NCBI GenBank assembly: GCA_020348925.1
Contig: CP070758.1
Coordinates: 2,145,408-2,209,407 of the forward strand
DNA from: Gemmatimonadota bacterium
GTDB taxonomy: Bacteria > JBHIER01 > G020348925
Length of the DNA: 64,000 nt
Reading direction: 5' to 3'
Shown one piece after another: positions 13,133 through 48,685 of the stretch; position 1 is the stretch's first letter; every line of letters starts with the position of its first letter. A model generated the notes under the pieces. The model was not told where the DNA came from. It saw nothing but the letters and a program-made list of their open reading frames with translations, and searched no databases. The position numbers and the translations under genes were made by a program.

Positions 13133-13133
13133 A

Positions 13134-15542
13134 TTACGCACGAGTTCGAGGCCCACAGTTTCCGATTCCCAGAATAACGTTCACAACGCTTACGGCATCC
13201 ACAGCATCCACCTCCCCATCACTATTGCAGTCGGCACACCAAAAACGGCTGCCCGTTAAGCTTTCGATCTCCAAAATGTGTCTCACGATAGCGATGACAT
13301 CCAGAACGTTCATGCTTCTGTCACCGTTCACGTCGCCCTTATCCGAAAGTGGTGCCGTGGTGAATTCAAAGACATCCTCGTGCGTAAACGGTTTCAGGGT
13401 TGCCAGCACAAATTCATCACCAAGTTCAGGCGGTGTGTACGAAGGATTGCCGGCAAAAAAAATCATCCACGTCAGGAATGGCCCACTCTGATCCTTCTCT
13501 TCGAGGATGTAAACCTCATCACGCGGGCTCAGCTCTCCGCTGCCATCCGCCTCGTTGAATACTATATCCACCTGACGATCCTCCGTCCTGTTCCAGACCG
13601 TGAAGAACATCGGCACGGCCAGGGCTCCTAAGAATGTGCTCGAGGTATCAACGATACGATCGTATATCTTCAGAACATAATCAGCCGGATAGGGGTATCC
13701 TCGAATAATCTCTGTTCCAAAGTCCAATTCGGGTAGCGAGATGGTGTGGGTCATGTTCGTCTGCCCGATCTCCCAACCTGTGCCAGCTTGATCGACCACA
13801 GCCCGCGGATAATCGAAGATGACCAATCGCAATCCATCGAAGGCGGGTCCTTCCGTAACGCCATCCATCTCTACAGCATTGCGCACGACGAACGTGTCCG
13901 CATCCAGATCATAAACACTGTAAGTCTTCTGCTCGGAGAGTGCGTCCTCAAACGTAATCCGATAGACGTGCCCGGTCAATTGTGATGCATCGATGATATT
14001 GCCGCCGACCGCACCACTCCCATCTCCCCCGATGTGAAGGAAAATGGACTCAGGAAGCCCGCTCCGCTCATTGTGAACGGTGAACGTCTGTGATGTATCC
14101 GCGACCTCAACGGATCCATCTGTGCAGCGGAGCCTCAAGCGATAAAACGGCGAATTCGGCATTCCTCTCGTGTCCCAAAGGTAAGAGCTATCATTCTGTT
14201 CATCGGTTACAATTGCTCTCCACGTAACTCCGTCATCACTGCTCACGTCGAGTGAAATAAGTAACGGATCACCGTCGGCATCGGCAGCGCTCCATCTGAT
14301 CTCGTATTCATCGTGCAGCAACTCGCCGCCCCGTGGATCATTCAGTTCGATCTCCGGAGGAGCATTTCCCGGATTATTGACAGTGAAGGGACCACTCGAC
14401 TCCGTCATACCGAAGCGTTCCTCTCCGAGGACTACGATGCGAAGCTTGTATTGAGTTCCATCGGGCACCGAAAGTGTGTTCCACGGATACGAATTGTTTT
14501 GTCTCTGACCGCTCCACAACTCATTCCAGCTCGCGCCGGCGTCATCGCTGACAAAGAGTGTCACGAACAGAGAATCCCCTGCATCTTCGAAGGTCCACGA
14601 GATATCGATCTGACCGGACACCTCATCACCAGCTAAGGGTGAGCGCAGACGGACATCCAAGGAAAGCAGGGTCGTCTCAAAGGTGCTGTACACGCCGATG
14701 TGATCCGAGGGATAGATTCCCCCAGAGCTCGGTCTGTTCAAAACCAATCGAGAATCAACCGCTCTGCTTTTGTCGCCATCTCTCAAAAAGACGTAATCGA
14801 TTCGGGCGTTCGGTGATTCGGCCGGGACAGTATACCCGGACCCTCCGGGATTGCTCTCGGCCCAACTGTCCAGGTAACGGATACCCTCCGCGTCGACCTC
14901 CGTCATGTTCCGAACCGGAGGAGCATCAGGAACCGCGTTGAAGTCACCACAGACAATATTCGCCGCAGGAACACCGTCAGCACTTTTCTCCTCAACATAC
15001 TCTTTGATCTGCCGCACCTGGGCCACGCGAACCTCCTCGTCCTGGGCGAGATGCGAGAGATGGGCATCAAAGAAGTTGACGATCCCTGCCGGGGTCAAGA
15101 TCCTGCAATACAATGCTTTTCTCTGAAAGACACCTACTGGTAAATCTCGCACACCTTCTTCAAGAATGATGTGTCGGGTCATGATCCCGAGACCCTCATC
15201 GTATCGCCCCCACCCTGTATGGGTCCGCTCAAAGATATACTCGTATCTGATTCCGGTCCTTCGATAGACCGAATCGGCGATCACCTTGGCGCTGTTGTCA
15301 CCACCTCCGGTCCCCGGTGTCTGAAGAACCTCCTGAAGGCCGATGAGATCCGGTTGAAGCTCCTCCAGCTCTTCAACAATCATACTCAATCGTGTCCCCC
15401 ACTCGATCTCCCAGCCGTGAAGGTTGAAGGTGAGAACAGTGAGTGAATCTCCGAGACTGCTCTGCACCTGTTGACCTTTACAGGGAATAATCCGGGCGAT
15501 GAGGAGAATACAGAGTATACCCCACAACAGTTTACTTTTCAT
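13134..15542 (-). CDS. Secreted endonuclease/exonuclease/phosphatase-fold protein with dockerin
   Basis: About 802 residues with a signal peptide (KLLWGILCILLIARIIPCKG). Residues about 30-290 are an EEP-superfamily domain: TFNLHGWE, PDLIGLQEV, FDAHLSHL, ANIVCGDFNAVPD, ARIDYVFLR and YPSDHIGV, all motifs for a metal-dependent phosphodiesterase. Two Ig-like domains follow (about 300-480), then a beta-rich region, and a dockerin type I pair at about 735-802 (GDVNGDRSMNVLDV and DCNSDGEVDAVDAV). The EEP fold includes DNases, sphingomyelinases and inositol phosphatases, so its substrate is open; it is odd company for starch enzymes. Start at 15542 has GAGGA about 8 bases upstream. Downstream gene begins one base after the stop. 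Confidence 0.83.
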   Translation of the reverse strand: MKSKLLWGILCILLIARIIPCKGQQVQSSLGDSLTVLTFNLHGWEIEWGTRLSMIVEELEELQPDLIGLQEVLQTPGTGGGDNSAKVIADSVYRRTGIRYEYIFERTHTGWGRYDEGLGIMTRHIILEEGVRDLPVGVFQRKALYCRILTPAGIVNFFDAHLSHLAQDEEVRVAQVRQIKEYVEEKSADGVPAANIVCGDFNAVPDAPPVRNMTEVDAEGIRYLDSWAESNPGGSGYTVPAESPNARIDYVFLRDGDKSRAVDSRLVLNRPSSGGIYPSDHIGVYSTFETTLLSLDVRLRSPLAGDEVSGQIDISWTFEDAGDSLFVTLFVSDDAGASWNELWSGQRQNNSYPWNTLSVPDGTQYKLRIVVLGEERFGMTESSGPFTVNNPGNAPPEIELNDPRGGELLHDEYEIRWSAADADGDPLLISLDVSSDDGVTWRAIVTDEQNDSSYLWDTRGMPNSPFYRLRLRCTDGSVEVADTSQTFTVHNERSGLPESIFLHIGGDGSGAVGGNIIDASQLTGHVYRITFEDALSEQKTYSVYDLDADTFVVRNAVEMDGVTEGPAFDGLRLVIFDYPRAVVDQAGTGWEIGQTNMTHTISLPELDFGTEIIRGYPYPADYVLKIYDRIVDTSSTFLGALAVPMFFTVWNRTEDRQVDIVFNEADGSGELSPRDEVYILEEKDQSGPFLTWMIFFAGNPSYTPPELGDEFVLATLKPFTHEDVFEFTTAPLSDKGDVNGDRSMNVLDVIAIVRHILEIESLTGSRFWCADCNSDGEVDAVDAVSVVNVILGIGNCGPRTRA

Positions 15543-15583
15543 GAGCTCAATTCCTCGGGTATCACCATACAACCAGCACCTTT

Positions 15584-18214
15584 TCACGGACACTCCGGAA
15601 TAATACCCAGAACAACATTGACGATAGAAACGACGTCCGTAACATCCACCCGACCATTACCGTCACAGTCAGCCCGCCAAAGGGCGCTCCCCCCCAACAC
15701 CTGTATACCTAAAATATGCCTGATGACCGCAATCACGTCCAAAACATCGAGGTGCCCATCACCGTTCACGTCACCCTTGTCACCGACGAATGAGAGGTCC
15801 TGACCGTACAACACCAACGCATCCTGCGTCTCCGGCACGTTCTGTATCATTATCAGGACCACATCCTCATCCGAATGATACCACCAGCCTTCCCCCCCAC
15901 CCCAGAATTGACCGGCCGAGTCATACTCGGAGATCCTCCCTCCATTTTTCAGAAGGGAATCGGGCGGGGTCGGGACACGGTTGACGCGGCAGATGTACAC
16001 CCGGCCGGGACGTCTTCCGGAGAAGCCTCCCTGGGCCGGTCCAATATCGATCGTTATCTTTCCTGGGTGCACCTGACACGTATATTGTGTCGTATCCCAA
16101 TCGCCGGACTCGTAACCGCAGCTCTTTCCATCGTCCTCGTAGACTATGGCGGAGGAAAATCCGGAGGGATAGATATCCAGGGTCAACGTGTCCAGGGGTA
16201 TCTGATCCGAATAGTCCATTTCAGGGCCCATGGGGATGATGGCCCCTGCTTTGATAAAAAGCGGCATGACATCCAAAGGTGACGGAACAGTGTGGTATCC
16301 CTGCGTATATATGTCCTTGGTCCAGTAATCGATCCATTCGCCCCGGGGAAGATAGACCGTTTTTGAGGTTGCACCCTCCTCGGTAACAGGAGCGACCAGA
16401 ATATCGTCACCCCAGAGATATTCCCATCCGAGATTGACGACCTCGGGATCGTCGGGATATTCCAGCACGAGAGGCCGGGCCAAAGGTAAGCCCACGGACA
16501 TATTTCTGTAGGCCATTGTGTAAATATATGGCAGCAATCTGTACCTCAGTTTGATGTACTTCTTACAAATAGCTTCAACCTCAGGACCATAACCCCAGGG
16601 TTCCGTCGTATGGCCGACACCGTGGGGCCGGGTAATAGGACAGAAGGTGCCGAACTGCATCCAGCGTGCATACAGTTCACCGCTCGGTGTTCCCCAAAAT
16701 CCGCTTATGTCGGAATGTTGATACCCGACACCCGACAGACTCATGCCCAGCATGATGGGAATCTGGTTCCTCAAACCTTTGAAGGTACAGGAGACATCCC
16801 CGGACCAGGGCGCCGTACCGTAGCGCTGCATCCCGGCATATCCCGACCGTGTCACAATGAACACACGCTCATCCGGACGATAGGCGCGATACCCGTCGTA
16901 CAGCGTCTTACTCCACAGTAGATTCAGAATATTATGGGCCTTGGCTGCGGAGCCAAGGTGGTGAACCATATCCTCCGGATGGGTCTCCGGCTCTCCCAGA
17001 TCGGTCCACCACCCGGCAACACCTTGATCCAAGAACGGCTCGTGCTTCGACCACCACCACTGACGGGCTTCCGGGTTGGTAAAATCGATAAGCCCGGCGG
17101 GGCCGGCCCACATATTGACGATATAAGTGGCTCCGGAAGGGTCCATGCCGAAATAACCGTTCGACGAACCCTCACTGAAATTGGGCGTCCAGTCCCTGAC
17201 ATACGGCTCCTCGATGAGGATGGTCTTAATCCCCACATCCTGAAACTCCCCCAACATCCTTGTTGGATCGGGCCAGTTACTCAAATTCCAGGCAAAACGG
17301 CCCATATCTCCGGGATACCCGAACCAGTAGAGATCCAGGATGATGGCATCGATGGGGATATCTTTCTCCCACATGGTCGAGATCATAGCCTTGGCCTGAT
17401 TTTCGTTCTCATACCCGTACTTTGACTGGAGATATCCCAAGGCCCAGCGGGGCGGCAGCGGTGCTCGGCCCGTCAGCCACGTGTATCTTTCAAGTATCCT
17501 TTTCATATCAGGACCGTAAATCATGTAGTAGGTCATTTGGCCTCCGTCTGCCCGATAAAACCAGTAATCAGAACTCTCCTCCCCGAAGTCAAAATTGCCG
17601 GTATAGGTATTATCGAAATAGAGGCCGTATCCGGAATTCGTGCAGACAAAGGGAATATTTATGCCCATGGTTGGATGCTCATCATCTCCGGAGCCATGCC
17701 GGTTATAGGTGTCAAAGCTCCAGCCCTTTCGATCCAGGTCGATGGCTCGCATACCGAGGCCGTAAAAATGATCGTCTTGGGTTTGTGAGAAATAGACATA
17801 CTGATTTGGCCTCTCCCACCCCAGACCTCCTTCAGGACGCTCTTGCAGAAGTAATTGACCCGACCTATCGGAGAAAGAGAGGCGGAACGGATATTTCTGA
17901 CAATGGATGTCAAATGTCTGGGATAGGATATGAAGACTACTATCCTCGTCCTCAACTGTAAAACTCACGCCAGGCCAGGATGAGTGCATCACAACGAATG
18001 AGCTGTCTTCCAGTGGATTCCAGATAAAAGAGAGCATCACCTTTACGATATCTTCAGTGCAGAACTCGAGGGACACAAAAGCCGGCAAACATTCGAAGAC
18101 AATCTTGTTGCCATCAACTTCGTGAGATCCGTAATCTCCCACAAACTCGACAGCCTCGAGCCTCATGTTTAAGGCAACAACAAAAAACGCTGTAAATATT
18201 ATTTTCGCTCGCAT
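15584..18214 (-). CDS. Secreted GH31 alpha-glucosidase with C-terminal dockerin
   Basis: An 876-residue exported enzyme (signal MRAKIIFTAFFVVALNMRLE). A GH31 N-terminal sandwich is followed by the barrel with WALGYLQSKYGY, ILDLYWFG and the nucleophile motif GWWTDLGEPE (D405 predicted), then the acid/base region PWSGDVSCTF. The distal beta domains contain LPRGEWIDYWT and VYEDDGKS as in family members. The last 65 residues are a dockerin type I duplicate (GDVNGDGHLDVLDV, DCDGNGRVDVTDV; about 812-876). GH31 enzymes remove terminal alpha-glucose from maltodextrins, isomaltose or related links; alpha-xylosidases share the family, so specificity is inferred from context. It follows the propeller gene by 12 bases and precedes the EEP gene by 41. 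Confidence 0.92.
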   Translation of the reverse strand: MRAKIIFTAFFVVALNMRLEAVEFVGDYGSHEVDGNKIVFECLPAFVSLEFCTEDIVKVMLSFIWNPLEDSSFVVMHSSWPGVSFTVEDEDSSLHILSQTFDIHCQKYPFRLSFSDRSGQLLLQERPEGGLGWERPNQYVYFSQTQDDHFYGLGMRAIDLDRKGWSFDTYNRHGSGDDEHPTMGINIPFVCTNSGYGLYFDNTYTGNFDFGEESSDYWFYRADGGQMTYYMIYGPDMKRILERYTWLTGRAPLPPRWALGYLQSKYGYENENQAKAMISTMWEKDIPIDAIILDLYWFGYPGDMGRFAWNLSNWPDPTRMLGEFQDVGIKTILIEEPYVRDWTPNFSEGSSNGYFGMDPSGATYIVNMWAGPAGLIDFTNPEARQWWWSKHEPFLDQGVAGWWTDLGEPETHPEDMVHHLGSAAKAHNILNLLWSKTLYDGYRAYRPDERVFIVTRSGYAGMQRYGTAPWSGDVSCTFKGLRNQIPIMLGMSLSGVGYQHSDISGFWGTPSGELYARWMQFGTFCPITRPHGVGHTTEPWGYGPEVEAICKKYIKLRYRLLPYIYTMAYRNMSVGLPLARPLVLEYPDDPEVVNLGWEYLWGDDILVAPVTEEGATSKTVYLPRGEWIDYWTKDIYTQGYHTVPSPLDVMPLFIKAGAIIPMGPEMDYSDQIPLDTLTLDIYPSGFSSAIVYEDDGKSCGYESGDWDTTQYTCQVHPGKITIDIGPAQGGFSGRRPGRVYICRVNRVPTPPDSLLKNGGRISEYDSAGQFWGGGEGWWYHSDEDVVLIMIQNVPETQDALVLYGQDLSFVGDKGDVNGDGHLDVLDVIAVIRHILGIQVLGGSALWRADCDGNGRVDVTDVVSIVNVVLGIIPECP

Positions 18215-18226
18215 TTTTACTCTCCA

Positions 18227-20287
18227 CTACGGCCAACAAGAACCACGACCCGTTATCACACTCACAACGAGAAGAATATCTCCTACATCAATAGTACTAT
18301 TGGCATCACAATCCCCACGCCAGAGAGTGCATGCGTCGGGCTCAATGATCCCAAGCGAAAGCCTGACCGCTGTGACAATATCGAGCACATTGATCACTCC
18401 ATCATTCGTGACATCGCCCTTCTGACCACATTCGTTGGCAATACCTCCCTCTCTGTAGACGGCCAATCCACCACCGGCAGTCCCTATCCACATGTTCCCC
18501 AGAGAATCCTCAGTCAGTGCCCAGATCCAGTTACTCGGCAACCCTGAATTACCCGTCATGAACACCTGCCACTCGGAATCGTCGAACCGCACAAGCCCCC
18601 TGCTGGTCCCGAACCACTTGTCCCCGTGAGAATCTATCGTCATGACCCAGACATGATTGTCAGGCAGGATCGAGTTCATCGTATCGTAGACCGTCCAGCC
18701 ATCACCATCAAACCGCGCCACTCCGCCATACGTACCAATCCACCGGTTTCCGAGGCTGTCGATGGCGATGTCATTGATCCTGTTATCCGGAAGACCCGAA
18801 TTGTCGGCCTGATAGACCGTCCAATGGAGACCATCAATGACAGCCAGCCCATTGAACGTTCCGATCCAAAGATCACCGATCTCATCAAAGGCCAGTGCGA
18901 GAACATCATTATCAGGCAGGTCGGAGTTTTGAGTGTTGAAAACAGTCCAACTCGTCCAGTCAAATCTGGCCAGTCCTCCACCAATGGTTCCCACCCACAG
19001 GGCACCGGACCAGTCAACGACCAGCTCGTAGATTGCGCTCCTCGGCAGACCGGAGTTCTGGGCCGTAAACGAATACCACTGTCCGCCATCGTAGAGACCG
19101 AGCCCACCCGGTGTCCCGAACCACTTGCTCCCTGAAATGTCGAAGGCGGACACCCACACCAGGTTGTCGAGGGAAACGGTTTTCTTGAGGTCGTAGGCGG
19201 TCCATGTGAATCCATCGTATTCCGTCAGGCCGTTTTCGGTCCCAATCCATCCGTGCCCATGTTCATCGAAAGATACTGTAAAAACGTCCTCATGCGGTAA
19301 GCCCGAATTCGCCGCGCTATACTCCCTCCACCTTTCACCGTCAAACCGCACAAGTCCCTCGTCCGTGCCAACCCATAGCATCCCGTCGTCATCCTCATCT
19401 ATTGCCCTCACTTCGTTACTTTGCAATCCGGAGGTGGCGGTGTTATAGACAGTCCATTGCCGTCCGTCGAATCGAGCGAGCCCACCACCCAGCGTCCCCA
19501 TCCATTTGTCACCCCGACTGTCAACAAAAACAGTCCAAATCCAGTTATGAGGCAAGCCGGAGTTGGAGGTGCTGTATACCGTCCACGAAGCACCGTCAAA
19601 TCGGGCCAAACCGTCTCCCGTCCCAACCCAGATATGTTCCTCTTCATCGAAGGCTATCGAATAGACATAATCGTTCGGTAAACCGGAATTCAGAGTATTG
19701 TAGCTCCTCCAGGCAGATCCATCGAAATGCGCCAATCCTCCCTGAGTACCGATCCACACCTCAAAGGAGTCTCTGACGGCCAAGGACCTTATTTCATTAT
19801 TTGGTAAGCCTGAATTCGAGGTTGTATACTGGATCCAGTCTTCCCCATCGAATTGGATCAAGCCGTCCTGCGTCCCGATCCACACAGTATTATAAAAGTC
19901 AATGGCCAGAGCTCTCACTCTGTTGTCCGGTAAACCGGAGTTCGATGTGCTGAACGTTGACCAATGCGCACCATCAAATCTGGCCAATCCCCCGGACGTT
20001 CCAATCCAGACACTCCCTCTCGAATCGACGGCGACGGTCCTCACCCCATTTTCCGGAAGACCGGCATTTGCCCGGTTGTAATGAACGACCTCATCGGTTG
20101 ATGTGCCGAGCTGTGTCAATCCGCAGCCACCAACCCAGAGATATCCGTTCACCGCAACGAGAGCATTGACATTCGGTGCTGTGTAATTGATCCATTCCGG
20201 GTCGTGCGCCACAACCGAAGGTACCCAGATGAAAACGAACACTCCATACAATAGAAATTTACAATCCAGTTGTATTGAGGATTTCAT
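18227..20287 (-). CDS. Secreted beta-propeller (Reg_prop-like repeats) with dockerin
   Basis: A 686-residue exported protein (hydrophobic signal LLYGVFVFIWVPSVVA). Residues about 30-610 consist of about 14 tandem repeats of roughly 42 residues, each with D..G..WIGT..GLARFDG..W..Y and NSGLPDN.V, the pattern of two-component-regulator propeller blades, which here would make two seven-bladed propellers. No histidine kinase or DNA-binding domain follows; instead the end is a dockerin pair (GDVTNDGVINVLDI, DCDANSTIDVGDI; about 623-686). It therefore looks like an extracellular binding or scaffolding component, not a sensor kinase. The start overlaps the end of the upstream GH13 gene by 29 bases, so expression is coupled. 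Confidence 0.85.
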   Translation of the reverse strand: MKSSIQLDCKFLLYGVFVFIWVPSVVAHDPEWINYTAPNVNALVAVNGYLWVGGCGLTQLGTSTDEVVHYNRANAGLPENGVRTVAVDSRGSVWIGTSGGLARFDGAHWSTFSTSNSGLPDNRVRALAIDFYNTVWIGTQDGLIQFDGEDWIQYTTSNSGLPNNEIRSLAVRDSFEVWIGTQGGLAHFDGSAWRSYNTLNSGLPNDYVYSIAFDEEEHIWVGTGDGLARFDGASWTVYSTSNSGLPHNWIWTVFVDSRGDKWMGTLGGGLARFDGRQWTVYNTATSGLQSNEVRAIDEDDDGMLWVGTDEGLVRFDGERWREYSAANSGLPHEDVFTVSFDEHGHGWIGTENGLTEYDGFTWTAYDLKKTVSLDNLVWVSAFDISGSKWFGTPGGLGLYDGGQWYSFTAQNSGLPRSAIYELVVDWSGALWVGTIGGGLARFDWTSWTVFNTQNSDLPDNDVLALAFDEIGDLWIGTFNGLAVIDGLHWTVYQADNSGLPDNRINDIAIDSLGNRWIGTYGGVARFDGDGWTVYDTMNSILPDNHVWVMTIDSHGDKWFGTSRGLVRFDDSEWQVFMTGNSGLPSNWIWALTEDSLGNMWIGTAGGGLAVYREGGIANECGQKGDVTNDGVINVLDIVTAVRLSLGIIEPDACTLWRGDCDANSTIDVGDILLVVSVITGRGSCWP
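18440..20130 (-). repeat. Tandem intragenic repeats coding propeller blades
   Basis: About 14 imperfect repeats with a period near 126 bases inside the propeller gene; each contains a WIGT..GL..FDG coding segment. Repetition at DNA level makes this stretch prone to recombination and assembly errors. Confidence 0.75.
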
Positions 20288-23200
20288 TCACCATCCCTAC
20301 GATGTCCAAAACGTTCACGGCCCCGTCGTCGTTGAAATCGGCGGCCCACAATTCATATTCTGTCGGGAGAGGGGGAAGTATCAGAATAATATTGACTGCC
20401 ATGACAACATCCACAACATCTATGGATCCGTCTCCATTCACGTCCCCTTTCAGTCCGAGATCAGTGTTGAGTGAGTCCCCTAAAACGAGAATCTGCGCCT
20501 GATACGGCTCAAGTTGGAAGTGGATCGTGTCAAGATTGGCCCCTCTGTACGGATACTGATGGTCGGCCAACACATCAGTCAGATAATACTGTTTCCCCGG
20601 ATCGACACTCCAATCCTCAAGGGGCAGGATCACATCGGCCGTCCGTACCTCATCGGCAAAATTGAGATTGACGACAACGGTCTCATCCCCTTCACGCCGG
20701 AAGAAGGAGTAGACGAAATTGCTGTTCCCGTTACTGAGCCGATCGATGGTCTGGTTGCGCATGGATGGGTACGTTTTCCGAACGAAGATGAGCTTCTGAT
20801 AGTAGGGTCGCAGCTCGTTGGGATCGCTCCAGTTAATGAGACCGCGCTGGCTGCTTTCCCCCACTTCCTGCCCGGCGTAGATGAGGGGTATCCCGGGGAT
20901 CGTCAGATTGAGAGCAGTCAGTATCTTCGCCTGGGGGACAGTATACTCGGACATGAGGCGCTGCTCATCGTGGTTCTCCAGAAAACGCAGGGGGTATGCA
21001 TTGTCCGGGAACCCGTACACGATCCCGTTGAACTCGTTGATGATCTTCTCATGCAGCCATCCCACGTCTCCACCGGAAAGAATGTTCCCGAATCCGTCCC
21101 AGAAGAGGGGCCAGTCGTAGGCCGAATCGAAACGCCGGTCGAAGAGTGTAAAATCAGTGGCACCGGCTTCGGCCAGGCACAGGATATCCGGCCTGGTCGT
21201 CTTCAACGCCTGCCGCCATTCAAGCCAGTAATCGGGATACCGGTCCTGGATGCCCCAGGCCACGTCGCACCTGAAGCCGTCAATCCCGAGGGAATCCGTG
21301 TAAAATTTGGCCATGTTGATGAAGTAATCCCGGGCATCCTCATCGCTCTGATTCAAATTGGGCAGGCTTGTCCAGTCATAGTAATAGGTGTAGAGACCGT
21401 TGGGGCTCAGCGTCCCTCCCAGCTCCTCCCTTCGCTCGTAGAAATCGTAATAAAAGGAATGCTGGCGGAACCTGGCCATATCCTGGAAGAAGGCATGATC
21501 GATGGAGGAATGGTTGACCACGTGATCGATGATGACGCGCAGGCCCAGGTCATGCGCCGTTTCGATAAATGCCACAAAATCATCCATGGTGCCGTAATCG
21601 GCCTCGATGGCCAGGTAATCATTGACCGCATAGCCGTGATCCGACGGTCCCTCGTTGATGGGCATGAGCCAGATGGCCGTTGCGCCCAAATCGGCGACAT
21701 CCCCAAGCCGTGCCGTCGCCCCGGCGAAATCCCTGCTGGAGCTGAAGGACCGGATGTAGATCTCGTAGAGTATGGCATCCTTGACCCACTGGGGGCTGTC
21801 GTTCATGCTGCCCCCCCAGGCACTGTCGGACGTCACGGAAACAAAGGTCCGCCCGTAAGACTCCTCACTGTCAATATCACTGGCGATGAGATCGAAATAG
21901 TATTCCCCCTCAACCTCGGGCTTGGGGAAAGAGGGCGTGGCCGACGTCGGATCGTCCAACACCACCAGCGACGGATTGTCCGAATCGACCAGCCACTGGT
22001 GAAACACTTTGGGACCGTTGGGATCATTACTCAGACTGGCATCAAGGCTGATCGTACTGTTGCTGAATATGGCCGGCGAAAATACGATGTTCGGCCGGGT
22101 ATAAAATTTTCTGAAGAAGATTAGATTCGCGGAGTAAATGGAATCGCCATCGCTGACGACCAGGGCGCGGAAAACGTTCTCCCCTGTTGTCAGAAAAGCC
22201 GCGTAGGCGAATTCATTCTCTATCACAGGAACGATAACGGGTGCTTCGTTGTGAAAAAGCGTTACCTCCACCACCGAACCACCCTCGACACTGCCGACGA
22301 TCTCGACGTTTTTCTTCAGCGTGGTTCCCCCTCTGGTCAGAAAGGACACGACGATATCCGATGCCTTCAGACTGCTGTCGATATCGCTGGGGCTGATGCC
22401 GACATATCCGCGTCCCTCATAATCAAGGGCCGCCTGGCGACTGCTGGTGAAGTTGTTGAACAAGCGAGTCTGGAGCTCGGGTGAATCACAGAACATGGCG
22501 TCAAATACATCCGCCTCACCCTCCTCAGCCACGCCACCCATATTCTCATCAACCTCCGTGACCATCCCCCCTGTTCCCGTCACATACGAATAGATGCAAC
22601 AGTACCACTTGTCCGTGAACGTCCCCAGCAGACCCGTCAAATCCGACAAAGAAAGCGAGAAGGCAAAGGTATCGGACGCAACCGCACCCGGGGGCATAGA
22701 AACCCGAAGATCCCCGATGAGTGGGTCTCTGGTCGTGTAGAGTATATTATGCATCTCCCCATCGCAGTGGGGAGACTCAGGAGATACAATGGGAACATAG
22801 ATACCGACACCGGTCCACTCAAGGTGACTCAATTCCGTACTGATAATATCCCCGACCAGGCCGGCATCGATGGAATTGGTCAGAATAAAGGAAAGGGCCG
22901 TATATTCCGTAATATCTGCCAGACCGATCCGAAAGTGCAATGAATCTTCAGCCCCCGTCAGCCTGATGTGCATACTGAGAAGATCAGCCGAACCATCCGG
23001 GACGCCTTCGGGATAGGTGTAGGTCCCGGTACCGGCATCGTCACCGTAGCTGTCAAGATAATGATATCCGGACTCCGACGGATAGACGCCGAAGACACTC
23101 GTTTTCCGGGGCGCGGCCCGACCCTCATTATCCGAAACGTCAAAGGTGAGAAGATGATCCCCCGGGGAGAGATCCGAAACGGAACCGGACAGCACTGACC

Positions 23201-24113: not shown

Positions 24114-24205
24114 TTGACACACCTTTCTTCTGAGAGTGAAAAACTTTCGCACTCCTTGTCTTGAAATCATGAATAATCGTCTCCTCATTCACCCTCGGTC
24201 CGACT

Positions 24206-27621: not shown

Positions 27622-27738
27622 GGTGTTCTCCTCGAGCACCCTTCGTCACAGAGAGAAAGTTTTCCGTTTTGGATATTGAATTTTGGATCTTTCATTTTCC
27701 TGCTTTGATTTTGCAGTTTTCATTTTGAATTTCACATT

Positions 27739-28581
27739 CTATCCCTTCACACTTCCCAGTGTCAGTCCTGAGACGAGCCACCGACTCAGAAACAGAAAAA
27801 GAGCGACAACAGGGATGCTGACAACAACAGCCCCGGCCGAGTACAATCCCCAGGAGACCTCCATATTCGACTGAAACATCTTGAGGCCGAGAGGGAGCGT
27901 AAAGAGGTTCTGGTCCTGAATGAGAACGGCGGCCACCAAATACTCCGACCAGGCCGTCATGAATGAAAACAGAGCCGTAATCACAAGCGCCGGTGCGGCC
28001 AAGGGGAGGACAATGCGCCAGAATATGCCGATTTGCGAACACCCGTCGATGGCTGCCGCCTCCTCGAGACTGTAGGGAATCGTATCGTAATACCCTTTCA
28101 TCTGCCACACAATGAAGGGCAAGGCCGTGGCAGAATAGGCGATGATGAGGGCAAAGTACGAATCATACGCCTTGAGTTTGATCAGCACAATAAACAAGGG
28201 CAGCAGAAGCATGGTCAGTGGAAACATCTGTGTCGTAATGAGACCGATCATGGCCGTATCACGCCCTCTGAACTTGTATCGGGAAAAACCGTATCCGGCC
28301 GTTGCGGCCAGGGCCACACCAAACAATGTGACGGCCGCGGAGACGATGATGCTATTTCCCAGCCATCTCAGAAAGGGCTCTTCCAGAAAGAGACGGACGT
28401 AGGTGTTCAACGTGGCATCCGGAGGAATAACGGCCAGTGATTTATCCAGAAGTCGATCCCCCGGCCGAAGGGAAATAGCCCGTACCCGCAAGATCGGATA
28501 CGCGGCGAAGAGGGTGAATATCGTTACAATTACATAGCTGGCGATTCGCGCCGGTGATGAAAGTGTTCTCGGTCCTCTCAT
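27739..28581 (-). CDS. Maltodextrin-type ABC transporter permease, MalG-like
   Basis: About 280 residues with six predicted membrane helices. The EAA loop that contacts the ATPase reads EEAAAIDGCSQIGIFWRIVLPLAAP, standard for the MalG/CUT1 family. N-terminal region RIASYVIVTIFTLFAAYPILRV matches the first helix. It pairs with the MalF-like permease 16 bases upstream and the binding protein before that. Start at 28581 is preceded by GAGGAG; an extension to 28665 overlaps the malF-like gene without a ribosome binding site. No ATP-binding subunit gene is nearby, so a shared ATPase must come from elsewhere. Confidence 0.9.
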   Translation of the reverse strand: MRGPRTLSSPARIASYVIVTIFTLFAAYPILRVRAISLRPGDRLLDKSLAVIPPDATLNTYVRLFLEEPFLRWLGNSIIVSAAVTLFGVALAATAGYGFSRYKFRGRDTAMIGLITTQMFPLTMLLLPLFIVLIKLKAYDSYFALIIAYSATALPFIVWQMKGYYDTIPYSLEEAAAIDGCSQIGIFWRIVLPLAAPALVITALFSFMTAWSEYLVAAVLIQDQNLFTLPLGLKMFQSNMEVSWGLYSAGAVVVSIPVVALFLFLSRWLVSGLTLGSVKG

Positions 28582-28597
28582 GTGTCTCCTCGACAGA

Positions 28598-29527
28598 TCA
28601 ATACACAGCCTGTGTCGCCTGCGTCCTTTTGATGAAGTTCCAGCTGAAAACGAGCAAGATGGCAAAAATAATCATGGAAAAGGCCGCCGCATACCCGGTC
28701 CGGAAATAGGTGAAGCCGACCTTGTACACCCAGGAAACGAGAATATGCGTCTTATCGGATGGCTCACCTCCGTTGCTGACGAGCCAGACCACATTGAAAT
28801 TGTTGAATGTCCAGATGATTCCCAGTGTGATAGCCGGAATCATGACAGGTTTCAGTAAGGGAATGGTGATGTTTTTCAGCTTCTGATACCACGAAGCGCC
28901 GTCGATGTCCGCAGCCTCATAGAGCTCGTCCGGAATGCTCTGCAGTCCCCCCAGGGCAATAATCATCATAAAGGGAAATCCCAGCCAGATGTTCGTGATC
29001 AGGCAGGCGGTGAAGGCCCCCCACTCAGTGGTCAGCCATGGTACCTGGAGTCCGAGAAATCTATCCAGGATGATGCTGATGGCCCCGTATTCGGAGTTGA
29101 ACATGCCCCGCCACGTCAGGGCCGTGATATACTGCGGTACGGCCCACGGGAGTATGAGCAGGGTCCGGAAGAAAGTCTTGCCCTTGAGGTCTTTGTTCAA
29201 GATGATGGCCAAAAAGACACCGATGGTGACATGAAAAAAGACGTTGATGACGGTCCACAGAATCGTCTTCACGAAGAAATACCAGAAATCGGGAACTTCG
29301 ATGCCGAGTAATTTCAAATTCATCGTAGTATCGGTCAAAACGGTCCAGAAGTTGCCCGGCCCAATGAGGCGCCAATCACGGAAGTGGGTCAAGTTCATGT
29401 TCGAAAGGGAAAGTATGATATTGTAGATGAAAGGATATACGATCACCAGGGCCATAATCATAAGAGCGGGCATGGTGTACACGTACGCCAATCGATTATC
29501 TCTTCTTTCTCCGATTCCTACTGCCAT
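28598..29527 (-). CDS. Maltodextrin-type ABC transporter permease, MalF-like
   Basis: A 309-residue inner-membrane protein with about six transmembrane helices. It shows the CUT1 pattern: an initial helix (AYVYTMPALMIMALVIVYPFIYNIILS), a periplasmic loop, ILPWAVPQYITALTWRGMFN, and the EAA loop YEAADIDGASWYQKLKNITIP. It lacks the long extra periplasmic loop of E. coli MalF. With the MalG-like partner it would form the channel for maltodextrins bound by the lipoprotein encoded upstream. Start at 29527 has AAGGAAAGG directly upstream. Confidence 0.9.
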   Translation of the reverse strand: MAVGIGERRDNRLAYVYTMPALMIMALVIVYPFIYNIILSLSNMNLTHFRDWRLIGPGNFWTVLTDTTMNLKLLGIEVPDFWYFFVKTILWTVINVFFHVTIGVFLAIILNKDLKGKTFFRTLLILPWAVPQYITALTWRGMFNSEYGAISIILDRFLGLQVPWLTTEWGAFTACLITNIWLGFPFMMIIALGGLQSIPDELYEAADIDGASWYQKLKNITIPLLKPVMIPAITLGIIWTFNNFNVVWLVSNGGEPSDKTHILVSWVYKVGFTYFRTGYAAAFSMIIFAILLVFSWNFIKRTQATQAVY

Positions 29528-29583
29528 TTCCTTTCCTTAGAGGATATTTCGAATTCCTGAAGATTTCGGAAGTCCCGTTATTC

Positions 29584-30903
29584 CTACTCCCTGTTCTCCT
29601 CGATCAATTTTAAGGCCAGGCGTTGCATACTCTCCGCCGCCTGCTCCGGTGTCTTCTCCCCAGTAAATATGGCCTGATAGCTCGGTCTCATGGCATCCCA
29701 GATCCAGCGCAGCTCGGTCACGACCGGCATTGTCTTTCCGACCATCAGCTGGTAAACAGACTGCTGAAGGAGCTCATTATCCTTCACAATGGAACTCCGA
29801 AAGGCCTCTTTTCTCGAAGGAATGGAAGCCGTCGCCCGTGTAAATATCAACTCAACCTCGGGAGAAGTGAGGAATTGCATCAATGCAACCGCCACCCTCA
29901 ACCGCTCACCCCTGACGTTGACGTTCAGTGAATAGCCCAGGGGAGAAATCATCGGCGAGGGCCACAGGTCGGTCTCATCTATTTTCGGAATCCGGGTGAT
30001 GCCGATATCGATATTGTTCTCAATGTACGTTCCCCACGACCAGGGTCCGTTGATAATCATGGCTGAATACCCATCCTTAAACAGAGCGTTGGCTATCTCG
30101 TAATCGCATTCACGGGGAATGATCCGATGGGTATTGGCCAGATCGTAAATCAGTTGCGCAGCGTCTACTACGGCGTCAGTGTCCAGGGTAGGTCGACTCT
30201 CTGCGTCCATGATCCATCCGCCGAAACCTCCGATAAAGGGTATGGCGAAAAAAGGCTCCGTATAGTTCCAGGCCAAGGCGTAGCGATCCGGTTTGCCGTC
30301 CCCGTTTGTATCCTTGGTCAACGCAACGCCCATCTCAATGAGCTCATTCATGGTTTCAGGAGGTTCGGGGACCATATCCTTGTTATAGACAAGACAGAGA
30401 TGATTCCCCACGCGGTCGGCGATCTGATAGAGATGATCCTGAAACCAGGTGTTGGCCTCTATCGGATCGGTTAAGAAGCTGTCAAGGTAAGCTTGGTTCA
30501 CATGGGGCTCGATAGGCTGGATGACCTGCAATTCCACGAGCGGGCCAATATTGTCGCTGGCACCCCACAAGAGTGCAGGGCCGCTTCCTCCCAGGGCGGA
30601 GATGATAAAGTTCGTGCGAGCCGTCTCAGGAGCGTAAAACAGCTCCCCAAACTCCCACTCGGGATGTTGTTTCCCGAATTCCTTGAGCTGCTCCCGAAGA
30701 ATCTCTCGCTCAATCGGCCGCAAGGAGTGCCAGACCATGATGCGTTTTTCGTTGTGGGAACAGCTTAAAATACTGAGAGCAAAGAATACGAATACCACAA
30801 GGTACTTGACCTTCAAGATCTTCGAATCCCACAATAGGTTTTGCCTCAGTGGAGCACCGTGTGTTGTTTTCGTTTCAAATCTTGAAACCATAGTCTTAAC
30901 CAT
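29584..30903 (-). CDS. Extracellular sugar-binding lipoprotein (MalE-like)
   Basis: A family 1 solute-binding protein of up to 439 residues, the capture component of the MalFG-like importer. Typical parts: IMVWHSLRPIEREILREQLKEFGKQHP near the start, GSGPALLWGASDNIGPLVE, VYNKDMVPEPPETMNELIEMG, and DGYSAMIINGPWSW. A lipobox (ALSILSC) shows membrane anchoring, unusual for E. coli MalE but common outside proteobacteria. The listed start is the longest ATG; a TTG at 30816 would give a classical signal (KVKYLVVFVFFALSILSC) and may be the true start, since 33 residues before the hydrophobic core is unusual. Neither has a strong ribosome binding site. The mature protein is the same either way. Confidence 0.88.
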   Translation of the reverse strand: MVKTMVSRFETKTTHGAPLRQNLLWDSKILKVKYLVVFVFFALSILSCSHNEKRIMVWHSLRPIEREILREQLKEFGKQHPEWEFGELFYAPETARTNFIISALGGSGPALLWGASDNIGPLVELQVIQPIEPHVNQAYLDSFLTDPIEANTWFQDHLYQIADRVGNHLCLVYNKDMVPEPPETMNELIEMGVALTKDTNGDGKPDRYALAWNYTEPFFAIPFIGGFGGWIMDAESRPTLDTDAVVDAAQLIYDLANTHRIIPRECDYEIANALFKDGYSAMIINGPWSWGTYIENNIDIGITRIPKIDETDLWPSPMISPLGYSLNVNVRGERLRVAVALMQFLTSPEVELIFTRATASIPSRKEAFRSSIVKDNELLQQSVYQLMVGKTMPVVTELRWIWDAMRPSYQAIFTGEKTPEQAAESMQRLALKLIEENRE

Positions 30904-30940
30904 ACTTCCGAAGTCTTAGAGATTTCGGAATTCTTCTCAC

Positions 30941-32776
30941 TCACACTATTTTCTCATCCCCCACGGCTTCAACCTTCACCTCCGATGAGAGATGCCTGAA
31001 CCAGGTAAAATAGAGACCGGTTGAAAGGGCGATTAGTATGACAAAAAGAACGCTGACGGTATCCCATCGTTTCATGATAACCATCATGAAGGTCAGAAAG
31101 AGGATGACCTGCCACGGCACGGCAAAGAAAGTCGATACGATATCACGCTTGTTCTCTTTGTTGACTTCCTCCATAACGTTTTGCGGGATCTGCCTCCGGA
31201 TATGCCCCCAGAATCCGAAAGGCCGGGTCCTTTTGTAAAACTCAAAAAGGACGGCATCGTTCGTCGGTTTGGTGGCAAAGGTTCCCACCAGCATGGCAAC
31301 AAAGGAGATGCCGCTGGCAAAGGAGAACGCCACATACTCCGGGACGTTCGGGAACAGGAGCCGCTGCAGGATGGCGGCCATCATGCCGGCTCCGGTGCCG
31401 ATGGCAAAACCATACCCGTTCAACCGCCACCAGTACCAGCGCACCAGTGTGGGAATAATCATGCCCGCTCCGATGCTCATGGTGATCCAGCCCCATATTT
31501 CATTGATGTTGGTGATGGCCAATGTAAAGAGCAAACCAAGAATGACCATAATAATGCTGGCCATGCGACTGTGCAGCATCAATTGCTTCTCCGTGGCCTT
31601 CGGATTGATGTACGCCTGATAAATATCTTTGACCCAGTAGGAGGCTCCGGCATTGACCGTCGAATCGAAGGTGGACATGGCGGCGGCCATCAATCCCGCG
31701 ATGAGAAATCCTTTGATGCCAATAGGGACCAGCTCGTTGACGACCACGGGGAGGACGGTTTCAGGATCGTTGATCACCCCTCGGCTGGCTCCCATGGCAA
31801 CCCCCATCAGGGCGATGGCGGCGATGAAGGGCCAGCGAAAGGAGAGCAGAAAGGTCCAGAAGAGGGACAGCAGTCCCGCCTCCCGGTCGCTCCGCGCCGC
31901 GAAATAGCGCTGGATCATGTAGCCGCTGGTTCCGCCACTGCCTTCAATCGTCACCTTGATGAGATAGAAGAGGATGGCTATTCCGAAGAGGTTGTATATC
32001 GAATAGGAGGACCCTGCCGGCATGTTCAATTTCCACTGGGGAAGAACGCTGGTCCAGGCCTCCTTCGTGGTTTGAATGGCTTGAAAGGTCCCGTCCCTCA
32101 TGGGAACGGAAATGGAAAACACATCGGGGATGTTGAACTTGGTGAGGGCCATAATACAGATGAAGAGAATGGTCCCGAAAATGAGAACCCCCTGAAAGAC
32201 ATCGGTCCAGACCACACCGTACAGCCCGCTGGCCACGGTGTAGATCATGGCCAGAACAATCATGAGGGTGGCTGCCCAGAATTGGCCGGACAAACCCATG
32301 AACGACGGGATGCCGAGAAACTCGGCCACGAACTTTCCGGACCCGATGGCAAAGTAGGTGATCATGGCAATGGTCACCACCATGATGGAGACGGCCGCCA
32401 GCAGGCGGGCGACATCACCCTCCCTGTCTTTGCCGAAGCGAAAGCGCATCCACTCGGCCATCGTCATCACCTGCGCCCGCCGGTTCCATTTTCCCATGAA
32501 GATCATGAGAAAGGCCATGATGAGGGTCACACCGCCGCGGATTTCGATGAAAAATCCCATGGCCCCCAGGGCGAAGATCCAGGCCGTATTGATCATGGTG
32601 CCGCTCACATCGAGGTTTGAAGCCATCCCGGAGGCACCCAACACCCACCAGGGAAGTTTCCGATTGCCCAGGAAATAGGAGTCTATCCCAGCCGATGCCC
32701 TTCGCTGCATGAGCAGACCGATGGTCACAATTCCGGTGAGATAGAGAACAACAATGACATAATCAATCCAGCCCAT
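30941..32776 (-). CDS. Sodium:solute symporter (SSS family), probably for sugar
   Basis: A 611-residue integral membrane protein with about 14 helices. The start (DYVIVVLYLTGIVTIGLLMQRR..SIDSYFLGNRKLPWW-like region) and ASGLYGVVWTDVFQGVLIFG are typical of the SSS/SGLT family; the SGTMINTAW and AAAMSTFDSTVNAGASYWVKDIY segments carry residues of the Na2 site region. Its position inside the starch cluster suggests a glucose or maltose symporter, giving a second entry route beside the ABC importer. Start at 32776 is set by AAGGAGGG. A 127-base gap separates it from the debranching-enzyme gene upstream. Confidence 0.88.
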   Translation of the reverse strand: MGWIDYVIVVLYLTGIVTIGLLMQRRASAGIDSYFLGNRKLPWWVLGASGMASNLDVSGTMINTAWIFALGAMGFFIEIRGGVTLIMAFLMIFMGKWNRRAQVMTMAEWMRFRFGKDREGDVARLLAAVSIMVVTIAMITYFAIGSGKFVAEFLGIPSFMGLSGQFWAATLMIVLAMIYTVASGLYGVVWTDVFQGVLIFGTILFICIMALTKFNIPDVFSISVPMRDGTFQAIQTTKEAWTSVLPQWKLNMPAGSSYSIYNLFGIAILFYLIKVTIEGSGGTSGYMIQRYFAARSDREAGLLSLFWTFLLSFRWPFIAAIALMGVAMGASRGVINDPETVLPVVVNELVPIGIKGFLIAGLMAAAMSTFDSTVNAGASYWVKDIYQAYINPKATEKQLMLHSRMASIIMVILGLLFTLAITNINEIWGWITMSIGAGMIIPTLVRWYWWRLNGYGFAIGTGAGMMAAILQRLLFPNVPEYVAFSFASGISFVAMLVGTFATKPTNDAVLFEFYKRTRPFGFWGHIRRQIPQNVMEEVNKENKRDIVSTFFAVPWQVILFLTFMMVIMKRWDTVSVLFVILIALSTGLYFTWFRHLSSEVKVEAVGDEKIV

Positions 32777-32789
32777 AATCCCTCCTTAT

Positions 32790-32900
32790 TATACCTGCCA
32801 TTGCGAGTGATAACGAAGCAATCACATGCCCAAGGGACATTATTCCCTAAGGGAGTCAGGAATCCTCCTCATTGTGCGCGCCTCGCCATGACTTGAAAAA
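32790..32900. repeat. Dispersed-repeat-like segment between debranching enzyme and symporter genes
   Basis: The gap contains ATTGCGAGTGATAACGAAGC (32801-32820) and nearby short palindromes (GGGACATTATTCCC). The same style of sequence (ATTGC...GCGA) occurs again around 53840-53880. Likely a short dispersed genomic repeat; no gene is seen. Confidence 0.4.
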
Positions 32901-32903
32901 CGA

Positions 32904-35276: not shown

Positions 35277-35339
35277 ATTAATGCTCCCACCCTGCCAGCC
35301 TCTCGCCAAGGCTTCTGCATGTCATTCCGGCTTCAGTGA

Positions 35340-35447
35340 TGTCATTCCGGTCGGAGTACCGGAATCTCCTCAATATAAAGGAACGTCTCATCTCTCTCCA
35401 CTGCTGTCATTGTCGGTCGGAGATTCCTGGACAAGCCAGGAATGACA
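35340..35447. repeat. REPIN-like inverted pair of short palindromes
   Basis: Begins TGTCATTCCGG and ends GGAATGACA. Inside are two hairpins, ATTCCGGT/ACCGGAAT (35344-35365) and ATTCCTGG/CCAGGAAT (35423-35443), facing each other with GGAATCTCC and GGAGATTCC on the inner sides. A further half copy starts at 35320. The same layout recurs at 55541-55625. Confidence 0.75.
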
Positions 35448-35497
35448 GGCACAATTAAAAATGACTCAACGTAGTGATTAAAACCCCTTGCAAAGAA

Positions 35498-35525
35498 GGG
35501 AGGAGGTCCTTTCAAACCTCCTCCC
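35498..35525 (-). terminator. Probable terminator or attenuator inside the glucan locus
   Basis: A perfect 10-bp stem GGGAGGAGGT/ACCTCCTCCC with an 8-base loop lies about 80 bases past the stop of the dockerin/tail surface protein. The following minus-strand tract is only moderately T-rich (TTCTTTG), so it may reduce instead of stop transcription into the enzyme genes. Confidence 0.55.
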
Positions 35526-35607
35526 TCCTTCCGTTCGACTCAGGGCCGAGTCTCGAAATGAGGCACGTATGTCAACCGAGACATAGCTTGCCCCGTTCGA
35601 TACCGTT

Positions 35608-37947
35608 CTACTTCATCAGCACCATCTTTCTGGTCATAACAGAGTTGTCAGTTTGGAGCCGATAGAAGTAGATGCCACTGGCCATGTCACTTCCATCAAA
35701 GGTCACACTGTGAAAACCGGCTTCCATCTGGCTGTCAACCAGAACCTTCACCTCCTGACCCAGGACGTTGAAGACGCTCAACTTCACTTTGCCTGAGAGA
35801 GGCAAGGCGTACGCAATCGACGTCTCCGGGTTGAAGGGATTGGGATAGTTCTGGGCCAGGCTGTACTCCCCCGGCATCCCTATTTCGGCCTTGACGAGCG
35901 CCATGAACCTGGAGAAATCCTCCGGAGCCATATAGTCAGCCAGGGATTGCAGGAATTTCATAGCTTCCGCAGACACCTCAAGCTTCGCCGCGGCAGGCGG
36001 GCACGTGCCAATACCCAGGACAACGTTGACGATGCCCAGAGCATCCAACACATCCCAGGCCCCGTCTTCGTTGCAGTCCGCAGTCCATATACCGGGAAGA
36101 GTCGTCGGGTCAGGCTCCGTGGCCAGGATAATATTCACGACATGAAGCACATCCAGGATGTCGACAGCGTGATCGAGATTGGCATCGCCCTTCAGCCAGG
36201 GCCGCTTCGCGTTGAAATCCCAGGTCCAGTACTGGGGCGGAGCGATATCTCCAAACTGGGCGTCAACTTGAGATTCCGCCTGACTGTCGTTGATATTCTC
36301 GATGTGGTTGTTCCCGTAACCACCCTCGTTATCACCACCGTTGACGCCGAACTTGAACTCCTGACCGACCACGTCGGAACTGTCCACAAAATATGACTCG
36401 ATACGGGTGTAGATACTGTCGCCGGCTGTCTCGTCCCCGTTGGTCCCGTCATCCACCATCCGCTTGTAGTCCAGGGTCATGAGATGGGCGCCCCAATCGG
36501 AGAACCCCTCGCCGTTGGACCATCCAAACTCCGTCGCCGGCCCGTTCATGGCCACACCATAGGCAATAACATCATCCGGATTGCTGATATCCAGCGATCC
36601 CTGGATGTCGTAGAGGGTACTGCCCACGGCCACCTGGTAGATGGCCGGCCTGACGTCGCAGGTGAAGGTCACCCTCACATCCATGGCAATCACCGACGTG
36701 TTACGGAACAGGGGCATGCGGTGAACGTCATCCTCGCTGTCCACGATATCCTGAATGACGATGTTATTCCCCTCGACAGGATCATACACCCGCCGCTCCG
36801 CCTCACCGGCTGTCAAGCCAGTATAGTAGAAGTTGTAGTATATCTCGCGGTAGTCGATATCATTCACGTTCTTGTAGTACTGGTAGTCCAGGAACTCGCC
36901 GATCGTCGTCATGATGGTGTCCGTGGCCGCGTAGATGTTGGTGAAGCCCTGACGCGTCATCGTCGCCGCATAAACCTCAGACGCCGTCCCGTAGTACCCA
37001 CAGTTGACCACCAGAGGCTGGCCGTGGGCAAAACCATTGTTGGCAATGGCGTTGGACATGTCCGCCTCAAACCGGACGATAACCTCGTCCTCATGGATGG
37101 CGGTCACCGGACGGAGATTGTCGAACCAGAACCAGTGCAGGGTCGTGTCGGCACCGGTCAAGTCAATACGAAGCTGCTGCTGACTGGGATTGTAGACCAT
37201 GTCGCCCCAGTCCTCCTCACAGGGGGCCCCAGCATTGTGCACCACCACCTTGAATTCGATCCCTGCACCAGCGTACGTATCAGGCACATGGATCGCGCCG
37301 CTGTAAAGGAATCGACCCGAATACTGCTGGCTGCCGCCGTTGACATGATCCGGCTCCGGACTGAGCCAGTGGGTGCAGCCCCAGCTGAGCTCGCCGGTCT
37401 GGCCCCAGTCGACGTAGTTGGAGCCCCGGATACCCACCTGATGAGTCGGCGAGAGATCCTCCCAACCCTGCATGTTCACCCGAACCCAGACCGCAAAGGT
37501 GCCTTCCACATCCTCCCAGGGCGTCGCCTCCGGATCACCAGAAAAAGTACCGTACACGAACTGCAGGGGAAGAACCGTGGCATCATCGGGAACGGTCAGT
37601 GTCCTGTTCGGATCGCCTTCCCAGCCCTGGTGTTCCCACTCCGCTCCCCCATAGACAGTGTCGTGGGAGGCGTTGGTGAAAAATTTGTACTGGATATTAC
37701 TTCCTGCGGCGAAGTCCCACGAACCTTCCCAGTAATCCCCGCCGACATTGTGCAGAAAAACCTCGGACGTCCCGTCCCACTCCAAGCCCCCGGCCACACC
37801 ATCATCACCACGCATCTGAACGACGGAGTTCGGTCCCATGGTATCAGGCACCGTGGCCGTATTCCCCACAAACGTAATCTGAACCGCACTGGCGGCCGTA
37901 AAAGCGGCCAACACGGTGAAAACTGCAAACAAAGAAACCTTTCTCAT
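35608..37947 (-). CDS. Starch-binding-like surface protein with dockerin and type IX tail
   Basis: About 779 residues with a signal peptide (MRKVSLFAVFTVLAAFTAASA). An N-terminal beta-sandwich (about 25-130; VQMRGDDGVAGGLEWDG, IQYKFFTNASHDTVYGG) resembles starch-binding modules, followed by a second such region, then a 300-residue domain shared with the next gene upstream, a dockerin pair (about 585-655; GDANLDHAVDILDV, DCNEDGAWDVLDAL) and an 85-residue tail (NYPNPFNPETSIAYALP ... GIYFYRL ... MVLMK) typical of type IX sorting. No catalytic motif was found. A surface glucan-binding role like SusE/SusF is inferred. Start at 37947 follows GAGGGGGA; a longer frame to 38040 has no signal peptide at its front. 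Confidence 0.82.
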   Translation of the reverse strand: MRKVSLFAVFTVLAAFTAASAVQITFVGNTATVPDTMGPNSVVQMRGDDGVAGGLEWDGTSEVFLHNVGGDYWEGSWDFAAGSNIQYKFFTNASHDTVYGGAEWEHQGWEGDPNRTLTVPDDATVLPLQFVYGTFSGDPEATPWEDVEGTFAVWVRVNMQGWEDLSPTHQVGIRGSNYVDWGQTGELSWGCTHWLSPEPDHVNGGSQQYSGRFLYSGAIHVPDTYAGAGIEFKVVVHNAGAPCEEDWGDMVYNPSQQQLRIDLTGADTTLHWFWFDNLRPVTAIHEDEVIVRFEADMSNAIANNGFAHGQPLVVNCGYYGTASEVYAATMTRQGFTNIYAATDTIMTTIGEFLDYQYYKNVNDIDYREIYYNFYYTGLTAGEAERRVYDPVEGNNIVIQDIVDSEDDVHRMPLFRNTSVIAMDVRVTFTCDVRPAIYQVAVGSTLYDIQGSLDISNPDDVIAYGVAMNGPATEFGWSNGEGFSDWGAHLMTLDYKRMVDDGTNGDETAGDSIYTRIESYFVDSSDVVGQEFKFGVNGGDNEGGYGNNHIENINDSQAESQVDAQFGDIAPPQYWTWDFNAKRPWLKGDANLDHAVDILDVLHVVNIILATEPDPTTLPGIWTADCNEDGAWDVLDALGIVNVVLGIGTCPPAAAKLEVSAEAMKFLQSLADYMAPEDFSRFMALVKAEIGMPGEYSLAQNYPNPFNPETSIAYALPLSGKVKLSVFNVLGQEVKVLVDSQMEAGFHSVTFDGSDMASGIYFYRLQTDNSVMTRKMVLMK

Positions 37948-47400: not shown

Positions 47401-47612
47401 AGCATCACGTAATACCCGTCAAAATCCGAAGCCGCTCCCATTGAGGTTCCCTCGACGATGACATTGGCGAAGGGGAGCGGTTCACCGCTCTCCGTATCGA
47501 CGATCCTGCCGGCAATTTTCCCTGTTGTTCCCCACAATGAAACGCCCGCCCAGGAGAGTACGAGCAGAACTGTAAAAATGGAAAGACAAGAGAAAGCTCT
47601 TTTTTCTCGCAT
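44430..47612 (-). pseudogene. TonB-dependent receptor (SusC-like) interrupted by one in-frame TAA
   Basis: The gene encodes a receptor of about 1060 codons. The start (47612, AAAGGAAAT upstream) has a signal peptide, then a carboxypeptidase-regulatory-like domain (about 30-110; GKIAGRIVDTESGEPLPFANV), a plug domain (about 115-240; EALQLQAGIVDRDGLHLRGG, YNAEYGQAMSGIVNIATKQG) and a beta-barrel ending in RRIELGFVYSF. A TAA at 45693-45695 stops it after 639 residues. Reading the same frame onward, sense codons continue without a shift through receptor-like sequence to 44430, so a single base accounts for the break. Either the gene is freshly inactivated, the base is an assembly error, or the stop is read through. 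In function it would import maltodextrins through the outer membrane. No SusD gene is adjacent. Confidence 0.88.
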
Positions 47613-48670: not shown

Positions 48671-48685
48671 CAACATTCTCTCCTT

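Follow-up and report, generated by a model that had tools for sequence, protein, structure and literature searches.

The dockerin module is normally associated with cellulosomes, and cellulosome-like assembly is usually presented as a specialisation of Firmicutes on plant polymers. A run of alpha-glucan genes in an uncultured bacterium of another lineage raises the question of whether its dockerin-bearing enzymes form an amylosome-like complex, as an initial annotation of this DNA had proposed, or take part in something more general. The window, meaning the whole 64 kb stretch that was analysed, corresponds to positions 2145408-2209407 of a one-contig genome of 5,037,917 bases (5.04 Mb) that is 96.3% complete with 0.5% contamination. 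The reading that we regard as probable is that the window dockerins belong to a secretome-wide, T9SS-anchored cohesin-dockerin network, general and not starch-specific, with the starch enzymes predicted to be held at the surface.

Source organism and domain searches

The rpoB protein was 65% identical to that of Zixibacteria SM23_73_3 and 57-61% identical to those of KSB1, Calditrichales and Marinimicrobia, and in an rpoB tree the source organism joined Zixibacteria with 83% support. The host is thus outside Firmicutes, as the initial annotation had held, with Zixibacteria, KSB1 and Calditrichota as its nearest relatives by rpoB. It would be an uncultured Gram-negative bacterium of the FCB group near Zixibacteria, although by this marker its phylum placement is tentative. 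Among the papers searched, none links dockerins to Zixibacteria.

Domains were searched at two levels. Pfam models were applied with their cut-offs (22.9 bits for Dockerin_1), and dockerin and cohesin models built from the genome's own domains were run over 1.55 Mb (31% of the genome) around cohesin and dockerin matches, together with a random 400 kb of the remainder. Reversed and shuffled proteins were used as decoys and gave 0 dockerin, 0 cohesin and 0 tail matches, on which basis chance and over-detection were rejected as explanations of the domain calls.

The alpha-glucan locus and its dockerins

A tight run of alpha-glucan utilisation genes was identified with Pfam on the minus strand (11243..32776), in which adjacent ORFs overlap by a few bases. 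It contains a GH13 gene (11243), the dockerin genes, a further GH13 gene (24206), a GH57 gene (25630), two ABC permeases with a binding protein (27739-30903) and an SSF symporter (30941). The tight minus-strand run of alpha-glucan genes also takes in a second GH57, a GT5 of the starch/glycogen synthase type, a GH63/MGH1-like enzyme that has a glycogen-binding domain, and GDE_C. Past the glucan genes, the window encodes two proteins with T9SS tails, a PorV-like outer membrane protein of the T9SS (39421..40473, minus strand; Pfam PorV 30.2 bits, cut-off 27), a TonB-dependent receptor with plug/CarboxypepD_reg and barrel (44430..47612, minus strand) and a LacI-family regulator (47630..48742, minus strand; Pfam). 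The receptor reads as a single frame with one in-frame TAA, and this sole internal stop (45693-45695) may reflect a pseudogene, an assembly error or a strain variant. The locus is plausibly a maltodextrin/starch utilisation locus of a Gram-negative bacterium, and it contains no scaffoldin itself, as had been noted from the start.

Two-loop type I dockerins, all on the minus strand, were confirmed by Pfam or by the genome's own model in each of the five proteins for which they had been claimed. Four are C-terminal: that of the EEP (endonuclease/exonuclease/phosphatase) protein 13134-15593 (13146..13349; Pfam 39.1 bits, own model 89.8), that of the GH31 enzyme 15584-18214 (15590..15787; 36.7 and 77.7 bits), that of the Reg_prop beta-propeller protein 18227-20287 (18230..18430) and that of the GH13 enzyme 20259-24188 (20265..20459; 36.9 and 80.3 bits), in which it follows glycogen-binding-like, PKD-like and GH13 domains in this order. 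The propeller dockerin was found with the own model (50.9 bits) but was below the Pfam cut-off and absent at E<=0.001. As the fifth most divergent of 211 dockerins (rank 4, counted from 0), it may be degenerate or losing function. The CBM20-like protein 35608-38040, whose CBM20 match of 23.1 fell marginally short of the cut-off of 23.3, carries an internal dockerin (35992..36201; Pfam 25.9 bits, own model 82.5) and a T9SS C-terminal sorting domain on the same strand (35611..35868; Por_Secre_tail 40.2 bits).

A sixth dockerin, beyond the range of the initial annotation, was detected in the subtilase 55805-60235 (56507..56704, minus strand; Pfam 31.8 bits, own model 71.3). It is directly followed by a weak cohesin-like domain (56129..56497, minus strand; 21 bits with the own cohesin model and under the Pfam cut-off) and then by a T9SS tail. 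The description of the locus as one of 'dockerin-bearing amylases' stands as far as dockerin-bearing enzymes are concerned, while the plural was generous, given one GH13 enzyme and one GH31 enzyme of the alpha-glucosidase family.

Cohesins and dockerins across the genome

A complete lack of cohesins would have spoken against assembly on any scaffold. Instead, Pfam Cohesin gave 81 matches genome-wide, 73 of them above the cut-off and multi-cohesin scaffoldins among them. In the 1.55 Mb read with the own models, 146 cohesins were counted in 81 ORFs (at least two cohesins in 39 of these), along with 165 T9SS-like tails and at least 211 dockerins scoring 40 bits or higher. Because the random 400 kb added 6 further dockerins and 2 cohesins, the whole-genome totals are estimated, with a wide error, at around 260 for dockerins and around 160 for cohesins. 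A dockerin of a single type I class is found at the end of, or within, some 200 or more proteins, the majority of which have a secretion-like N terminus. Cohesins, between one and six per chain, occur in dozens of proteins, and many of these have a T9SS sorting domain at the C terminus. Among 58 other genomes, kin at the domain level only, the highest counts were 25 for dockerins and 11 for cohesins. Cohesin-dockerin sets of moderate size, in some cases with both domains in one frame, were seen in panel genomes G039 (11 cohesins, 25 dockerins), G009 and G016.

The 73 cohesins at the Pfam cut-off are half of those returned by the genome-tuned model, and such a doubling could be taken as the mark of an artefact of chance or over-sensitive domain calls. 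The zero decoy matches, the PDB and fold matches, which are annotated cohesins, and a single-contig genome with so little contamination all contradict this explanation. It is exceedingly improbable, and for the bulk of the domains it is refuted by these controls.

Two canonical calcium loops were present in 170 of the 211 dockerins, and recognition positions 10-11 were mostly [VI][LI] in both repeats, a conservation which points to a single broad class, perhaps able to bind in a dual mode. A Cys at position 2 of calcium loop 2 co-occurs with a Cys 25 residues later in a GxGxCxP tail: among 195 dockerins, 134 had both, 46 neither and 15 one (Fisher p 2.5e-29, paralogy ignored). Examples are the seeds L005, L012 and L018 and the window dockerins of the EEP and CBM20-like proteins, and a disulfide between the two cysteines is possible. 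The strong dockerin L003 (genome 4080164-4080334) has one internal TGA where others carry Trp or Leu.

Scaffoldins and the cohesin fold

The clearest scaffoldin cluster was located at genome positions 4334158-4340957, where a protein with six cohesins and a tail is followed by two proteins that each have three cohesins and a C-terminal dockerin. The first has 1241 residues, with HYDIN-like Ig domains and a T9SS-type tail, and a scan of named genomes with this protein turned up no relative. By its domain order the cluster has the layout of anchoring and adaptor scaffoldins. A further protein with three cohesins and a dockerin is encoded at 73096, and in further scaffoldins the number of cohesins ranges from two to five and a tail may be present or absent. 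Non-catalytic scaffoldins with multiple cohesins are present, and some proteins are composed almost solely of cohesins. Adaptor-scaffoldin dockerins stand out by their divergence (ranks 5, 11, 27 and 28 of 211) and the adaptor cohesins cluster, a pattern that fits a two-level assembly.

The identity of the cohesins was assessed with a profile built from 64 of them, which was searched against PDB sequences with an E limit of 0.01. It gave 36 matches, and every one of them was among the annotated cohesins or cohesin-bearing proteins (best E 1.5e-17). The fold predicted for a scaffoldin cohesin (pLDDT 97.6) aligned to cohesin crystal structures with a TM of about 0.85, and the best 50 Foldseek matches listed were all annotated cohesins. 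Predicted structures of this one scaffoldin cohesin and of one cohesin-dockerin dyad therefore indicate true cohesins by fold. In the dyad, an arrangement common at C termini, the prediction shows the cohesin together with the dockerin helices, and the dyad profile also matches R. bromii Amy12 and Amy10.

Cohesins directly adjoin a dockerin in the same protein at 39 places (before it in 21, after it in 18), and the dyad cohesins form nearly a single clade. This is what would be seen if the domains were mostly calcium-stabilised spacers or intrachain pairs that build no complexes. We consider this unlikely, since 107 dockerins (40 bits or more) stand at the C terminus of a chain without cohesin, almost-pure cohesin proteins exist and both recognition loops are conserved. 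The many cohesins that share a chain with a dockerin nevertheless make intramolecular use conceivable, which counts against the preferred reading of a network between proteins.

T9SS anchoring and export

The genome encodes the T9SS translocon SprA, and many scaffoldins have a T9SS CTD, so that both elements of a T9SS-anchored complex, the CTD on scaffoldins and the translocon, were found. SprA, the C25 peptidases and the PorV-like protein support a working T9SS. The C25 (gingipain-type) peptidases gave fourteen matches genome-wide, and at least three C25 proteins bear a dockerin.

A total of 117 dockerins stand at the C terminus of proteins that have no T9SS tail. An N-terminal hydrophobic stretch was found in 81% of the tail-less dockerin proteins, compared with 45% of background ORFs. 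T2SS export was considered as a route for these proteins and rejected: no T2SS secretin was found, the genome's only secretin belonging to a PilM-PilN-PilO type IV pilus locus (4463000-4478000; L289). The outer-membrane crossing of tail-less proteins with C-terminal dockerins is consequently not accounted for, which also counts against the network reading.

A tentative suggestion, which we think possible but would not presume, is that the dockerin is a general surface-retention tag: many tail-less secreted proteins would be held by T9SS-anchored cohesin scaffolds, and perhaps exported piggyback while docked on a T9SS-tailed cohesin protein. If this were true, cohesin-dockerin pairing would serve to secrete and display proteins and not to degrade polysaccharides.

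Cargo and the place of the starch enzymes

Among 195 dockerin proteins scanned with Pfam, peptidases were represented by M28 in 6, M14 in 5, S8 in at least 4, C25 in 3, M1 in 2 and S41 in 2. Other domains included LVIVD and other propellers, FG-GAP, TSP_3, PKD, LamG and Ig-like repeats. Not one of the glycoside hydrolase families ranked with the 25 commonest domains of any group of these 195 proteins, a ranking outside which singletons may lie. Peptidases, propellers and adhesion-like proteins are, judging from these domains, the main identifiable cargo of the network. One further dockerin protein resembles GH57. GH9 was not found in the genome, with control matches in two genomes, and GH48 had no match in the genome or in any control genome.

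The initial annotation's proposal implies a dedicated amylosome, in which four proteins of the locus (GH13, GH31, propeller and CBM20-like) would share a scaffold specific to starch, after the model of Ruminococcus bromii. Several dockerin proteins do lie within one alpha-glucan operon, the EEP and GH31 dockerins are near each other (0.63 identity), and R. bromii manages with five dockerin amylases and five scaffoldins (PMC5814915). Of the roughly six GH13 genes in this genome, a dockerin is found only in the one at 20259, where an amylosome of the R. bromii type would have several on extracellular GH13 enzymes. The dockerin density of the window (6 in 64 kb, where 3.3 would be expected; P 0.11) is not unusual and resembles that of the genome at large, the dockerins of the GH13 and CBM20-like proteins are most similar to ones encoded in other parts of the genome, and none of the scaffoldins was seen to carry a starch-binding module. 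With cargo that consists mostly of peptidases, propellers, adhesion-like and unknown proteins, the starch-specific part of the proposal was not supported, and a dedicated amylosome is improbable. Given the single dockerin GH13, the ordinary density and a cargo in which no GH family is among the commonest domains, the starch enzymes appear to be some of many proteins served by a general system.

The abundance of PKD, TSP_3, LamG, FG-GAP and HYDIN-like Ig domains in cargo and cohesin proteins would also suit a cell-free matrix, surface coat or adhesion layer in place of an enzyme-holding machine. Dockerins are, however, also carried by many enzymes (M28, M14, C25, S8, GH13, GH31), and many scaffoldins have T9SS tails, which makes this alternative very unlikely.

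In the general, T9SS-anchored network that we favour, the SprA-type T9SS would export the T9SS-tailed scaffoldins, which would be anchored on the outside and would receive adaptor scaffoldins with three cohesins and a divergent dockerin. Enzymes, the GH13 and GH31 of the window among them, would attach via their dockerins, so that through docking on anchored scaffoldins the starch enzymes would be held at the cell surface. Released sugars would then enter via the TonB receptor and the ABC and SSF transporters of the locus. A Gram-negative bacterium with one of the largest known cohesin and dockerin inventories, apparently T9SS-anchored and with a mainly peptidase and adhesion-like load, would broaden the role of this module pair. 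It also raises the question of how dockerin proteins without a T9SS tail pass the outer membrane, and the genome supplies new cohesin-dockerin pairs that engineering can draw on.

Comparison with known systems

The concept is not new, since Ca. Stygibacter, the planctosome and Pseudobacteroides cellulosolvens have already been published, and the first two are the nearest precedents. Ca. Stygibacter (Cloacimonadota) has a non-catalytic tandem-cohesin scaffoldin with a T9SS CTD, and dockerins on GH57, GH18, S8 and C25 enzymes (PMC8542988). The present system shares with it the Gram-negative host, the T9SS-tailed tandem-cohesin scaffoldin and the dockerin enzymes, but what was reported there is a single large scaffoldin with a few dockerin enzymes, compared with 81 cohesin ORFs, adaptors and 211 or more dockerins here, in another lineage. 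The planctosome of Nemodlikiaceae is a proposed peptidase complex (PMC6461901), similar in combining cohesins and dockerins with peptidases, including M14, in a Gram-negative; it has few components and a proposed lamin-tail-domain anchor, in contrast to the T9SS tails seen here.

As in the R. bromii amylosome (PMC5814915), a dockerin is found on an extracellular GH13 and the scaffoldins are separate, and the dyads resemble the Coh-Doc C terminus of R. bromii Amy4 (PMC5814915). That amylosome, however, is starch-specialised, Gram-positive and sortase-anchored and has 5 dockerin GH13 enzymes as against one here. P. cellulosolvens, with 78 cohesins, 31 scaffoldins and >200 dockerins, has been called the most extensive system (PMC5590126). 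The inventory described here is likewise very large and has putative anchoring and adaptor levels, and by the Pfam cut-off alone (73) its cohesin count is near that record, not above it. P. cellulosolvens has a cellulolytic clostridial system, whereas the cargo here is mostly non-CAZyme and lacks the GH9 enzymes of a cellulosome sensu stricto.

Known T9SS cargo proteins have the same Por_Secre_tail/FlgD-like CTD, SprA and PorV-like protein, but here the tail is combined with cohesins and dockerins, and the 117 C-terminal dockerins are in tail-less proteins. Compared with these published systems, the scale, the two scaffoldin levels and the general cargo appear to be new in this lineage.
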